Assembly (NCBI RefSeq): GCF_025725645.1
Contig: NZ_CP107007.1
Location: forward strand, 3,100,001 to 3,164,000
Reading direction: 5' to 3'
Source: Halomonas sp. GD1P12
Lineage (GTDB): Bacteria > Pseudomonadota > Gammaproteobacteria > Pseudomonadales > Halomonadaceae
DNA length: 64,000 nt
Shown here: piece after piece, positions 41,619 through 45,555 of the stretch
Position numbering within the stretch: position 1 is the first letter of the stretch
Layout: every line of letters starts with the position of its first letter
The notes under the pieces: generated by a model
Told to the model about the DNA's origin: nothing
Seen by the model: the letters and a program-made list of their open reading frames with translations, nothing else
Database searches by the model: none
Translations under genes and position numbers: made by a program

Positions 41619-42683
41619 TCAAGCTAGCCGCTCGGCGGCGGTTTTCAACAGGTGCTCGGTGGTGTCCCAGCCCACGCAGGCGTCGGTAATCGAGACGCCA
41701 TAGCGCATCGCGCCGGGGTTTAGCGCCTGTTTGCCTTCGAACAGGTGGCTTTCGAGCATCAGTGCGACCAGGTTCGCCTCGCCCGCGCGGCGCTGGTCGA
41801 GAACGTCGAGCATCACCTCGCTCTGGCGGCGGTGATCCTTGCGCGCGTTGGCGTGGCTGCAGTCGACCATCAGGCGCGGGTTCTGCCCCGCCGCCTGCAG
41901 GGTCTGGATCGCCTGGCGCACGTGGTGGGACTGGTAGTTGGGTTCACCGTGGCCGCCGCGCAGCACCACGTGCGTATGTGGGTTGCCGGCGCTTTGACGC
42001 ATGATCGGGCGGCCCTGCGCATTCTGGGCGAAGCGCTGGTGCGGGTGGGCAGCGGCCTGCATGGCGTCGATCGCCACCTGTACGTCGCCGCTGGTCGCAT
42101 TTTTAAAGCCCACCGCAGCGCGCAAGTCACTGGCAAGCTCGCGGTGAAGCTGACACTCGGTAGTGCGCGCGCCGATCGCCACCCAGCTCAACAGATCTTC
42201 CAGGTACGGCGCGAGCATCGGCTGCAAAAGCTCGGTGGCCACCGGAAGGCCCCGGGAGGCCACGGCGTGCATCAGCTCCCGCGAGCGGGTCACCCCTTTC
42301 GCCATGTCGCCGGCGCCGTTCAAATCCGGGTCGTAGGCCAGGCCCTTCCAGCCCACGGTGGTGCGCGGCTTCTCGACGTAAACACGCATTACCGGCAGCA
42401 CGCGCTCGCTGATCTCGTCGCCGAGCGCGGCGAGGCGGTCGGCGTACTCGAGCGCGGCATCCGGGTCGTGGATCGAGCAGGGCCCAACCACCACCAGCAG
42501 GCGGGAATCCTCGCCGGTCAGGATGCGCTGCACCGCCTGGCGCTGGCGATCGAGGCGGCTTTCAAGTGCGGCATCGACGTGGATGCGCTCCAAAAGCTCG
42601 CCGGGCAGCGGCAAGGGCGTAGCGCCTTTCTCGGTGGCGGTGGCGGGCTGGGCAGTACGGGTCGTCGTTACTGGGGCGTTCAT
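41619..42683 (-). CDS. aroG: 3-deoxy-7-phosphoheptulonate (DAHP) synthase, class I
   Basis: The enzyme condenses phosphoenolpyruvate and erythrose 4-phosphate, the first and usually feedback-controlled step of aromatic amino acid synthesis. The class I-alpha blocks are VVGPCSIHDPDAALEYA near residue 75, MRVYVEKPRTTVGWKG near 110, GARTTECQLHRELAS, RGGHGEPNYQSHHV, MVDCSHANARKDH and GVSITDACVGWDTTEHLL near the C-terminus. Its 354 residues and sequence match AroF/G/H of E. coli; the effector (Phe, Tyr or Trp) cannot be told. The ATG at 42683 has only a weak GAGATAA box and lies 4 bases after a small ORF, suggesting translational coupling. Confidence 0.95.
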   Translation of the reverse strand: MNAPVTTTRTAQPATATEKGATPLPLPGELLERIHVDAALESRLDRQRQAVQRILTGEDSRLLVVVGPCSIHDPDAALEYADRLAALGDEISERVLPVMRVYVEKPRTTVGWKGLAYDPDLNGAGDMAKGVTRSRELMHAVASRGLPVATELLQPMLAPYLEDLLSWVAIGARTTECQLHRELASDLRAAVGFKNATSGDVQVAIDAMQAAAHPHQRFAQNAQGRPIMRQSAGNPHTHVVLRGGHGEPNYQSHHVRQAIQTLQAAGQNPRLMVDCSHANARKDHRRQSEVMLDVLDQRRAGEANLVALMLESHLFEGKQALNPGAMRYGVSITDACVGWDTTEHLLKTAAERLA

Positions 42684-42687
42684 GGCG

Positions 42688-42840
42688 TTATCTCACGGTC
42701 AAGGGACATCGGTCATTCAGGGTGCCACCCAAACGGGCCCGGTCGGAGGTGGCTACCTGCACCGACCGCGCGCCGCTAAATCGCCAGGCCTGGTAATTAC
42801 CCGAATAGAGAGCGATAAAAGCGTTGCGGTAAGCGGTCAT
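42688..42840 (-). CDS. Aromatic-rich 50-residue leader ORF 2 of aroG
   Basis: A small ORF with a near-ideal ribosome binding site (AAGGAGAG, 5 bases from ATG 42840), far better than that of aroG. It stops with TAA (42688-42690) 4 bases before the aroG ATG. Residues 1-21 contain six aromatics: MTAYRNAFIALY then NYQAWRF; the remaining 29 residues are ordinary. In the DNA of its second half two hairpins exclude each other. One pairs 42741-42746 with 42762-42767 (inner AGGT/ACCT); the other pairs GCCACC with GGTGGC just downstream. I infer a coupled regulatory ORF; it could also be a small protein. No homologue recognised. Confidence 0.6.
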   Translation of the reverse strand: MTAYRNAFIALYSGNYQAWRFSGARSVQVATSDRARLGGTLNDRCPLTVR

Positions 42841-42893
42841 GGTGTCTCTCCTTGAAACGTTACGTGAATCCGGTTTTATAACCGTATAAAAAC

Positions 42894-42930
42894 GCAAAAG
42901 CCCCGGCGGGTGTCCCGCCGGGGCTTTTGC
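42894..42930 (-). terminator. Strong hairpin with T tract in the aroG leader (candidate attenuator)
   Basis: On the minus strand GCAAAAGCCCCGGCGGG and CCCGCCGGGGCTTTTGC pair perfectly around ACA, followed by GTTTTTATA. It lies about 40 bases downstream of leader ORF 1 and about 54 bases upstream of leader ORF 2. It either ends transcription from fre or acts as an attenuator for aroG. Confidence 0.85.
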
Positions 42931-42993
42931 TGTCGGCAGGCTACCTGGAAGGTGTGCCTGCTGGGTTGGCTAGTCGCGAGCCCAGGGCACACC
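42931..42993 (-). promoter_or_regulatory. Alternative hairpins between aroG leader ORF 1 and its terminator
   Basis: On the plus strand GGTGTGCC(TG)CTGGG (42951-42965) is an inverted repeat of CCCAGGGCACACC (42981-42993), so the end of leader ORF 1 can pair with the segment after its stop. The same middle segment (GCCTGC, 42956-42961) can instead pair with GCAGGC at 42936-42941. These 1:2 and 2:3 pairings exclude each other, as in amino acid attenuators. The 2:3 stem does not overlap the terminator stem at 42894-42930, so how it would block termination is not obvious. Confidence 0.55.
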
Positions 42994-43092
42994 GGATCCA
43001 AACCAATAAAAGCCATAGCCCAACGCGCACGCGAAAACGCCCGCCGCGCGAGGCAGCGAAAGCGTTATCAGTGAGCGAGGCGATAGCGTCAT
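42970..43092 (-). CDS. Leader peptide 1 of aroG with Tyr-Phe-Trp cluster
   Basis: A 40-codon ORF from ATG 43092 to TAG at 42970-42972. Its end reads GYGFYWFGSGVPWARD: two Tyr, two Phe and two Trp in 13 residues, of which five lie in the run YGFYWF. The Gly-Ser-Gly-Val codons right after this cluster are arm 1 of the hairpin at 42951-42993, the geometry expected if a stalled ribosome covers arm 1. The ribosome binding site is weak (GGAT). The peptide is not conserved with anything I recall by sequence; the assignment rests on position, composition and the downstream stems. An overlapping longer in-frame ATG at 43323 is rejected. Confidence 0.6.
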   Translation of the reverse strand: MTLSPRSLITLSLPRAAGVFACALGYGFYWFGSGVPWARD

Positions 43093-43193
43093 AGTGTTAT
43101 CCGGTGTGTTATTCAATGGGCGAACCAGCGTTATGGCTTTATCCTGCCTGCCAAAACCGTCAATGGCAATACTCTTTACGCATCGAATGTCGT

Positions 43194-43985
43194 TTAGCTC
43201 GTCGGGCGCGGGGCGTAGGCGAACACGTCCGAGTAGAGCCTCTCCGGCCGGGCGCCATGAGCCTCGAGCACGTCGACGCAGGCGTAGACCATGCCCGGCG
43301 AGCCGGAAAGATAGATATCGCACTCGTTGACCGCCACCGGTTCATTTTCGATGGCCAGGGTCGGCAGCGCGCGCTCGAGCACCTCGGTGATACGCCCCTG
43401 AAAGTGGGCGATGCGCGGCGCGTTAGTCAGCGGTTTTTCGAGCTCGAGTTCGGTGACCGCGTGAAAATGAACGTTGTCGAAACGCGCCGCCCAATCGCTG
43501 GCAAGGTGTTCGGCGTAAAGGTCTCGATGCTCGCGGGCCGCCCACCAGATGAACACGGCGCGCCCCGGCTGCTCGTCGAGCACCGCCTCGACGATCGCTT
43601 TCATCTGGGCGAATCCGGTACCGGCGGCGATCAACAAGAGCGCGCGCTCGCTTTGCACGTCGAGCACGCACTCGCCGCCGGGCAGGCGGATGGTGAGCTC
43701 GCCGGAGAGTGTGAGCAGTTCGCGCAGTCGGGCGGAGTTCTCCCGCTCCGGGCGGTGCTGGATGTGCAGCTCGATCACGCCGTCGCCGCGCCCGTGGCTG
43801 GCAATGGAGAACGGCACCCAGGTGGACGCGTCGAGCTTGAGCTCGAGGTACTGGCCCGGCAGGTGACTGATCGCGTCCGGGTCGCCCTCCAGCGTCACCC
43901 CGAGTACGTCCGGGTTGAGCGCTCGAACGTCGGTGATCCGGCAGATGATCGCTTCCCGCGTGGGGGTCTGGGTGCTCGTGCTCAT
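43194..43985 (-). CDS. NAD(P)H-flavin reductase (Fre-like), next to ubiD
   Basis: A ferredoxin-reductase-fold protein of 263 residues. The flavin-binding block PGQYLELKLDASTWVPFSIAS lies near residue 45-65. The NAD(P)-binding block LLLIAAGTGFAQMKAIVEAV is near 125, and the C-terminal YLSGSPGMVYACVDVLEAHG matches Fre. There is no [2Fe-2S] domain. The start at 43985 has AAGAGG upstream; an ATG at 44246 would read through ubiD. A Fre-type gene beside ubiD is known from Pseudomonas; a link to the reduced flavin used by the UbiX-UbiD system is plausible but inferred. Confidence 0.88.
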   Translation of the reverse strand: MSTSTQTPTREAIICRITDVRALNPDVLGVTLEGDPDAISHLPGQYLELKLDASTWVPFSIASHGRGDGVIELHIQHRPERENSARLRELLTLSGELTIRLPGGECVLDVQSERALLLIAAGTGFAQMKAIVEAVLDEQPGRAVFIWWAAREHRDLYAEHLASDWAARFDNVHFHAVTELELEKPLTNAPRIAHFQGRITEVLERALPTLAIENEPVAVNECDIYLSGSPGMVYACVDVLEAHGARPERLYSDVFAYAPRPTS

Positions 43986-44061
43986 GACAGCCTCTTTTGA
44001 AAACTCAACGCTTTTAAATCTGGCGCTTTTAAAACCTTGCATAAAACCCTGAAACGCTCGC

Positions 44062-45555
44062 TTAGCCGTGGCGCGACGGCGGGCGCTCGATACCGATCCC
44101 CAGCGACTCCCAGCGCTCGTCGACCCGCGCCTTGACCGCCTCATCCATGACGATGGGCGTGCCCCACTCGCGGTCGGTCTCGCCGGGCCACTTGTTGGTG
44201 GCGTCGAGGCCCATCTTGGAGCCGAGCCCGGAGACCGGCGAGGCAAAATCCAGGTAGTCGATCGGCGTATTCTCGACCATGACCGTATCGCGGGCCGGGT
44301 CCATGCGCGTGGTGATCGCCCACATCACATCTTCCCAGTTGCGCGCGTCCACGTCGTCGTCGAGCACGATCACGAACTTGGTGTACATGAACTGGCGCAG
44401 AAAGCTCCATACCCCCATCATTACGCGCTTGGCGTGGCCGGGGTACTGCTTTTTCATGGTCACCACCGCCATGCGGTAGGAGCACCCTTCCGGCGGCAGG
44501 TAGAAGTCGACGATTTCGGGAAACTGCTTGTGCAGGATGGGCACGAACACTTCGTTGAGCGCCACACCCAGGATCGCCGGCTCGTCCGGCGGCCGGCCGG
44601 TGTAGGTCGAGTGATAGATCGCATCGCGTCTTTGGGTCATGCGCGTCACGGTGAAGACCGGGAAGGTATCCACTTCGTTGTAGTAGCCGGTGTGATCGCC
44701 ATAGGGGCCTTCCGGCGCCATGTCGTCCGGGTAGATGAAGCCTTCGAGGATGATCTCGGCAGAGGCCGGTACCTCGAGGTCCGCGTGATGACACGCCACG
44801 AGCTCGGTGCGCGAGCCGCGAAGCAATCCGGCGAAGGCATACTCGGAGAGCGAATCCGGAATCGGCGTTACCGCGCCCAGAATGGTCGCCGGGTCGGCGC
44901 CGAGCGCCACGGCCACCGGGAACGGCTCGCCGGGGTGCTCCTTCTGGAACTCCTGAAAATCGAGCGCCCCGCCGCGATGCGACAACCAGCGCATGATCAG
45001 CCGGTTCTTGCCGATCTTCTGCTGGCGGTAGATACCCAGGTTCTGACGCTTCTTGTGCGGCCCGCGGGTGATGACCAGCGGCCAGGTGACCAAAGGGGCG
45101 GCGTCGCCGGGCCAACAGTGCTGGATCGGAAGCCGGTTCAGATCGACCTCGTCGCCTTCGAACACCACTTCCTGCACCGGGGCGCGCTTGACGCTTTTCG
45201 GCCCCATGCTCAGCACCTGCTTGAAGATGGGCAGCTTCTCCCAGGCATCCTTCAATCCCTTGGGCGGGTCCGGCTCTTTCAAAAACGCCAGCAGCTTGCC
45301 GACTTCGCGCAGCGCCTCGACGGACTCCTGGCCCATGCCCAGCGCCACCCGGGTGGGAGTGCCGAACAGGTTGCCCAGAAGCGGCATATCGTGGCCCTTG
45401 ACGTTCTCGAACAGCAGCGCCGGGCCGCCGGCACGCAGGGTGCGATCGCAGATTTCGGTGATCTCCAGGTACGGGTCCACCTCGACCGTTACCCGCTTGA
45501 GCTCACCGCGCGCTTCGAGTGCCTTGATGAAATCGCGCAAGTCGTTATATTTCAA
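44062..45555 (-). CDS. ubiD: 3-octaprenyl-4-hydroxybenzoate decarboxylase
   Basis: This prenylated-FMN enzyme decarboxylates polyprenyl-4-hydroxybenzoate in ubiquinone synthesis. It opens [22 protein letters not shown] as UbiD does. The catalytic E-R-E region is [31 protein letters not shown] in part, around residue 290-330, and the end is [17 protein letters not shown]. The 497-residue length is typical. The prenyl-FMN maker UbiX is not in the window. The order rho-ubiD-fre on one strand is like Pseudomonas. Confidence 0.95.

Follow-up and report, generated by a model that had tools for sequence, protein, structure and literature searches.

The DAHP synthase gene aroG of Halomonas sp. GD1P12, which stands first in aromatic amino acid synthesis, lies behind a leader region that we regard, with high confidence, as an attenuator of aroG, and comparison of this region among related genomes makes it likely that the element is a five-arm transcription attenuator, ribosome-mediated and with an inverted logic. 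The leader is found in the window, i.e., the 64,000-nucleotide stretch that was analyzed (contig NZ_CP107007.1, positions 3,100,001 to 3,164,000). The sequence-only reading had proposed an aromatic attenuator of aroG that reads Tyr, Trp, and Phe jointly, and this proposal is supported by the conserved codons and the conserved, covarying stems described below. Comparison of loci shows that the two putative leader open reading frames and all arms are conserved and that the stems covary; they are as follows, with the flanking features.

43141 to 43169, minus strand: promoter-like site 5' of ORF1, TTGCCA - 17 nt - CAGGAT (cross-locus comparison)
42970 to 43092, minus strand: leader ORF1, 40 codons, C-terminal ..GYGFYWFGSGVPWARD (ATG at 43092, stop codon at 42972-42970; open frame and Tyr/Trp/Phe cluster kept)
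42986 to 42993, minus strand: arm 1, GGTGTGCC (partner, arm 2)
42951 to 42961, minus strand: arm 2, GCAGGCACACC (partner, arm 1 or arm 3)
42934 to 42945, minus strand: arm 3, GGTAGCCTGCCG (partner, arm 2 in stem 2:3 or arm 4 in stem 3:4)
42909 to 42920, minus strand: arm 4, CGGCGGGACACC, upper 5' arm and loop of the terminator (3:4 covariation)
42894 to 42930, minus strand: intrinsic terminator (4:5) with T tract (hairpin scan, covariation)
42688 to 42840, minus strand: leader ORF2, 50 codons, MTAYRNAF..NYQAWRFSGARSVQVATSDRARLGG.., Shine-Dalgarno (SD) sequence AAGGAGA (frame and start kept across loci)
42762 to 42771, minus strand: ORF2 arm A, GCGCGGTCGG (A:B pairing, covariation)
42737 to 42753, minus strand: ORF2 arm B, GCCACCTCCGACCGGGC, partner A or C (covariation of A:B and B:C)
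42724 to 42729, minus strand: ORF2 arm C, GGTGGC (B:C pairing, covariation)
41619 to 42683, minus strand: aroG, DAHP synthase (TIGR00034, aroFGH)

The gene order on the minus strand is a flavin-reductase-like gene (ending at 43194), the promoter-like site, ORF1, three RNA arms, the terminator, ORF2, and aroG (ATG at 42683), the last of which scored 417 bits against TIGR00034 (cut-off of 173). Re-reading of the minus strand confirmed where ORF1, the two inverted repeats, and the terminator had been placed. The six aromatic residues that had been noted are present in YGFYWFGSGVPW, but they span 12 residues rather than 13; the 3:4 pairing, ORF2 (42840-42688), and the promoter-like site (43169-43141) were absent from that reading. 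With 17 pairs and a tail rich in T, the terminator hairpin at 42930-42894 is one of four terminator-like sites in 42300-43800 (1.1 expected from shuffles), of which the other three have 5 pairs each. The flavin-reductase-like ORF as listed (43194-44246) carries a 98-residue N-terminal extension ahead of its family match and runs into the end of the ORF upstream of it (44062-45555), and translation of the flavin-reductase-like gene probably starts at an internal codon.

A search for aroG gave a match in all 61 same-genus genomes, and the upstream regions were read for 60 of these (G045 was left out). The core TAYTGGTTTRG was present in 60/60 same-genus loci, with TAC only in L058, as were the arms and the terminator, with arm 3 shortened in L060. 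Among 121 loci, none had a stop codon of the ORF1 frame in the 45 nt 5' of the core, compared with 39 and 40 for the other two frames, and the cluster of Tyr, Trp, and Phe codons together with the open frame was found in 121/121. From this keeping of the frame, we infer that ORF1 is translated. An ATG with an SD-like site was recognized in 91/121 loci and was absent in the window and 29 others. The stop codon of ORF1 lies 0 to 16 nt past arm 1 in 103/106 loci. The last Trp and Phe codons start 12 and 9 nt 5' of arm 1, respectively.

The sequence-only reading had suggested a check on conservation and covariation in relatives, and this showed that the aromatic codons and the stems are kept and that the stems covary. 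Stem 1:2, whose core in the window pairs GGTGTGCC (42993-42986) with GGCACACC (42958-42951), inside the repeat first given as 42981-42993 and 42951-42965, was paired as a whole in 98.5% of cells (59 distinct same-genus rows), and stem 2:3, with its core of GCAGGC (42961-42956) and GCCTGC (42941-42936), was paired in 91.5%. Both stems covary, and the 8-mer combinations of arms 1 and 2 do so across genera. On 54 family sequences, the terminator stem 4:5 was paired in 90.0% of cells, and 66 cells had changed on both sides (0/500 shuffles). Folding of the 60 sequences with RNAalifold chose 1:2 plus 3:4 unprompted; in the window, 3:4 joins 42945-42934 to 42920-42909 with 10/12 positions paired (-19.1 kcal/mol). 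In an alignment (A3) of 54 family sequences from the 102 parsed loci, 3:4 was paired in 92.3% of cells and 12 cells had changed on both sides (0/500 shuffles), compared with at most 61.1% pairing for slid versions of the duplex in the same 54 sequences; only 3 pairs carried the two-sided change, and 90/500 shuffles reached that number. The duplex beat 95% of its shuffles in 85/102 parsed loci, but not in the other 17; four loci beyond the 102 were unparsed in this test (L010, L034, L130, and L142). Among the matches listed from named genomes, 55/68 loci passed. The letters of the 3:4 pair have changed repeatedly between genera while the two arms stayed complementary: divergent sequences keep it as GGTTGCC/GGTAACC, GGGTTGCC/GGCAACCC, and GGGCTGCC/GGCAGCCC, L022 has GGTGACC/GGTTACC, and L197-L200 have GGCTGCC/GGTAGCC.

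Formation of 3:4 excludes 4:5, and formation of 2:3 excludes 3:4; 3:4 is likely the antiterminator and 2:3 the anti-antiterminator. A caveat had been raised that 2:3 does not overlap the terminator stem. This is correct, and the 3:4 pairing resolves the gap: arm 3 reaches into the terminator hairpin, binding its loop and 5' arm, and supplies the link that was missing from the switch as drawn. With five arms rather than four, the logic that had been proposed therefore inverts.

We compared the sequences 5' of ORF1 for a shared promoter. A scan of 42300-43800 for sigma-70 sites gave no promoter; the site at 43169-43141 came from the comparison, in which TTGYCA-N16/17-YAGGAT occurred 5' of ORF1 in 45/60 same-genus loci and 30/44 other family loci (0 expected from shuffles). 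It was not found there in the remaining 15 and 14 loci, respectively, nor in any of 17 loci mostly from other families, and was present in 7/67 named loci among the matches listed. No site of this promoter type was found 3' of the terminator in 189 loci (the named ones again being those among the matches listed). In L055, L056, and the seven loci read from genus g4, the terminator stands directly before aroG, and only 31 nt separate its GC stem from the aroG ATG in L055 and L056. The promoter-like site and this short spacing suggest that the terminator may share one transcript with ORF1 and aroG. Transcription of aroG starting 3' of the terminator had been named as an observation that would speak against attenuation; the comparison does not indicate such a start, the putative promoter site having been found 5' of ORF1 and in none of 189 loci past the terminator.

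These results bear on the possibility that ORF1 and the terminator make up an independent small RNA (P15), or else belong to the upstream operon as its end, with the aroG promoter placed after the terminator. The Pseudomonas version of the element is filed in Rfam as type Gene under the name "Pseudomonas sRNA P15" (RF00627), with neither a leader peptide nor aroG in the entry line; P15 is named among the sRNAs detected by Livny et al. (PMC2375449); and a strong terminator does stand between the upstream gene and aroG. We nevertheless find this explanation improbable, since the promoter-like site is kept 5' of ORF1 and no site of this type was found past the terminator in 189 loci (promoters of other types may lie there), the 31-nt spacing in L055 and L056 is short, ORF1 behaves like a translated frame with an aromatic run, and 71/80 named loci among the matches listed sit before DAHP synthase.

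The P15 model starts within the aromatic codons of ORF1, spans arms 1 to 3, and ends within the terminator. Its gathering score was reached by 10 of 21 sources tested, and these ten were all Pseudomonas-type loci or, in two cases, from family f43. The window matched the model over its full length with 23.5 bits, below the gathering score of 70, and 10/10 other Halomonadaceae leaders did so with 30 to 42 bits, also below 70. In our reading of these matches, P15 is the Pseudomonas version of the aroG leader, and its detection as an sRNA would fit a terminated leader; this would give a likely function to a family that Rfam carries as the gene of a small RNA. None of the Rfam leaders, including the T-box, matched anywhere in the window at its gathering score; the best one below threshold was His_leader (27.9 bits vs 49), with model positions 84-123 on the terminator. 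In Pseudomonas-type leaders, Gly-Tyr codons GGGTAT are complementary to ATACCC past the ORF1 stop (47/68 named loci among the matches listed), a pairing that is part of the first hairpin of P15 and was found in 0/104 loci of the window's family. It may set a different default in Pseudomonas-type loci, as a possible default-OFF arm.

ORF2 is very likely a second regulatory leader. None of 108 loci had a stop codon of its frame in 45 nt, compared with 36 and 41 for the other frames, and an in-frame ATG with an SD-like site was found in 106/108; L051 and L059, which lack this combination, come from genomes that are 89% and 80% complete. TGGCGATTTA or a one-base variant was present in 65/68 named loci with DAHP synthase in reach (among the matches listed). 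Pairing of A with B was seen in 98.0% of cells, with 11 cells changed on both sides (0/500 shuffles), and 9/10 of these pairs form in the window; B was paired with C in 100% of cells, with 3 changed on both sides (1/500 shuffles). The two pairings are mutually exclusive. The alignment used (A2) leaves out L021, L047, L049 (variant TTTAAC), L055, and L056 (no ORF2). Arm A of the window starts 15 nt past the ORF2 TGG, near the spacing of arm 1 in ORF1, and in same-genus loci the tail of ORF2 extends as far as the ribosome site of aroG. ORF2 probably tunes either aroG translation or a second read-through step of the same geometry.

TGGCGATTTA in ORF2 and a CGATGT near its end (CGAAGT in some loci) are near-invariant at the DNA level (42786-42777 and 42711-42706, respectively, in the window). 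A covariation scan of 97 sequences yielded no usable partner for CGATGT; three A:B pairs were in its top six. In-frame tandem repeats occur in ORF2, with a 12-bp unit near the end in L021 and a 6-bp Gly-Tyr unit in L035. In the Pseudomonas-type loci L194, L208, L209, and L210, the stretch from the ORF2 stop codon to the SD sequence of the DAHP synthase gene seems, by eye, to contain a GC-rich hairpin.

ORF2 could also be the true aromatic sensor, acting by translational attenuation through A:B and B:C, with the ORF1 terminator being constitutive. The framing of ORF2 is at least as good as that of ORF1, its stems covary, and its tail comes within reach of the aroG ribosome site in same-genus loci; however, no ORF2 was seen in the seven loci read from genus g4, or in L055, L056, L188, L191, and L197-L200, where ORF1 and its arms remain. 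Because ORF2 was not seen at those loci, the ORF1 device occurs without it. Moreover, folding gave no consistent change in exposure of the SD sequence between the two ORF2 states (18 loci up and 12 down of 102), and we give this alternative little credence. A thermodynamic SD switch by ORF2 was rejected on the same folding, with mean SD-to-AUG exposures of 0.52 (stall) and 0.51 (arm A masked) and no trend over the 102 loci. Pairing of arm B as an anti-SD with the aroG SD (CTCC with GGAG, plausible by eye) was dropped as evidence, since any SD sequence complements such a stretch.

Returning to the five-arm attenuator, we infer the sign, kinetics, and starvation response of the switch as follows. 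ORF1 would be translated while being transcribed. If Tyr-, Trp-, or Phe-tRNA were short, the ribosome would halt on the aromatic run, whose end is approximately one ribosome front 5' of arm 1; arm 1 would be free to form 1:2, and arm 3, also left free, would form 3:4 and capture the terminator loop and 5' arm, giving read-through into aroG. With ample charged tRNA, the ribosome would run on to the stop codon, which sits in the 1:2 loop, and mask arm 1; arm 2 would then pair with arm 3 (2:3) ahead of the synthesis of arm 4, and the terminator 4:5 would form. A ribosome with the usual footprint would leave arm 1 free while waiting at Tyr or Trp and would cover all or much of it at the stop codon; a Phe codon in the A site would bring about 4 nt of arm 1 under the ribosome. 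For folding, the ribosome was represented by masks whose distances follow general ribosome footprints. With the stall and arm 4 out, 1:2 plus 3:4 was obtained in 93/102 loci, and with the ribosome at the stop codon before arm 4, 2:3 was obtained in 93/102. For the stall with the RNA ending at arm 3, 1:2 formed in just 77/102 loci. When arm 4 was out and the ribosome sat at the stop codon, folding at equilibrium preferred 3:4 in 74/102 loci, including the window, and kept 2:3 in 19. Because equilibrium favors 3:4 in those 74 loci, the OFF branch must be kinetic, with 2:3 forming first and then holding, and this modeled branch is the weakest step of the proposal. An untranslated leader would be read through under the five-arm model, the opposite of the outcome in the Escherichia coli trp operon.

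The earlier idea, in which a stalled ribosome masks arm 1 and thereby shifts the stems, was not supported. When the helix position was left unconstrained (best 1:2 helix, 116 loci), arm 1 began 11 to 16 nt past the first base of the TGG in 98/116 loci, and, given 3:4, a covered arm 1 would favor termination, which is the wrong sign. A classical four-arm switch, with arm 1 covered by the stalled ribosome and 2:3 as the antiterminator, is very improbable: 1:2 and 2:3 exist and are mutually exclusive, and trp and phe leaders work in this way (part of PMC2659441 gives a general description), but in the aroG leader arm 3 is outside and 5' of the terminator and pairs with its 5' arm and loop, the aromatic codons end 5' of arm 1, and, with 3:4, masking of arm 1 would mean more termination on starvation.

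Across genomes, the element was followed with two models, R1 built on the ORF1 element and R2 on the ORF2 element. R1 matched at most 189/201 genomes of the family and at most 66/244 of the order; both counts are upper bounds, as terminator-only matches pass, and in three loci with R1 matches (L203-L205) no leader was seen. R2 matched 145/201 family genomes and 9/244 order genomes, 7 of the latter being from the window's own family, and its single match in the window's genome is at aroG. The family loci that were read (L127-L172) represent 16 genera by label, the window's genus included. Of 23 chosen family genomes, 6 matched aroG with an E value of 1e-120 or lower, a count from which no inference was drawn; some without such a match (g7 and g15) still have the leader (L134, L201, and L202). 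Outside the family, R1 and R2 matches showed an identical arrangement ahead of DAHP synthase in three families (f21, f43, and f20). For L190 of f43, the best match among the named loci listed was Alcanivorax L251 (74% over 1072 bases). A pattern scan of named genomes gave at least 119 stretches, of which 80 were taken as loci. Among the matches listed, 71/80 lie before DAHP synthase (L215, L260, and L267 by eye), 6 were too short, and 3 (L218, L257, and L268) were discarded as chance pattern matches. The genera among the matches listed are Pseudomonas, Stutzerimonas, Halopseudomonas, Denitrificimonas, Alcanivorax, Halomonas, Billgrantia, Chromohalobacter, Salinicola, and Halotalea.

In the E. 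coli trp and phe attenuators, there are four arms, the stalled ribosome masks arm 1, and arm 3 is the 5' arm of the terminator. The aroG leader has in common with them a leader peptide containing the regulated codons, mutually exclusive hairpins, and an intrinsic terminator before the structural gene. It differs in having five arms, with an antiterminator made of arm 3 and the 5' arm and loop of the terminator; in the position of its regulatory codons 5' of arm 1, such that a stall would free arm 1 rather than mask it; and in the reading of Tyr, Trp, and Phe by one leader, which is followed by a second leader ORF.

Three further systems can be likened to the aroG leader. Corynebacterium glutamicum aroR-aroF also places aromatic codons ahead of a DAHP synthase gene, with a Phe-Tyr-Phe leader on which stalling leads to read-through (PMC11802643, PMC4046766), but it belongs to another phylum, has one leader, and responds to Phe and not Tyr (PMC11802643). 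The uORFC-13-1 motif is a candidate leader ORF with one or more Phe codons and a terminator upstream of the DAHP synthase gene aroF (PMC8632094); it differs in being limited to Acholeplasma and environmental sequences and in having a single leader with Phe. In the model for Shewanella leuA, an extra stem competes with the antiterminator (PMC2659441); there, the leader-coding sequence forms an anti-antiterminator that is opened by the stall, whereas the leader-coding arm of aroG would protect the antiterminator. No paper on a leader peptide before aroG or aroF in Halomonadaceae or Pseudomonas was found in the open-licence PMC literature, which is not proof that none exists; the main text of PMC8297930 contains neither "PA1750" nor "phosphoheptulonate".

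Taken further, the five-arm reading leads to a two-stage gate, for which we see about an even chance: the ORF1 element, its codons placed to free arm 1, would decide transcription, ORF2 (WRFS), built with a like ribosome-front spacing, would govern translation or a second termination, P15 would be the terminated product of stage one, and the whole would be an old device of the Pseudomonadales. If the five-arm wiring is right, it would add to leader-peptide attenuation a working layout whose sign is preserved by an odd arm count combined with a shifted stall site, and it would open the control of DAHP synthase by aromatic amino acids to direct tests in Pseudomonas as well as Halomonas. That a single gene is preceded by two successive leader ORFs also raises the question of why two sensors are present.

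The second DAHP synthase gene was read in six loci (L061-L066; in the window's genome, G000:C1:1691740-1692840), and no leader with an aromatic cluster was found before it; four ORFs there that contain aromatic residues were judged by eye to be due to chance. Upstream of this gene, a common block, ..GTGTTACGCGTT..GCATCAAGC..ACAATTGATTTTTA.., was recognized by eye in the six loci and is perhaps the site of a regulator.
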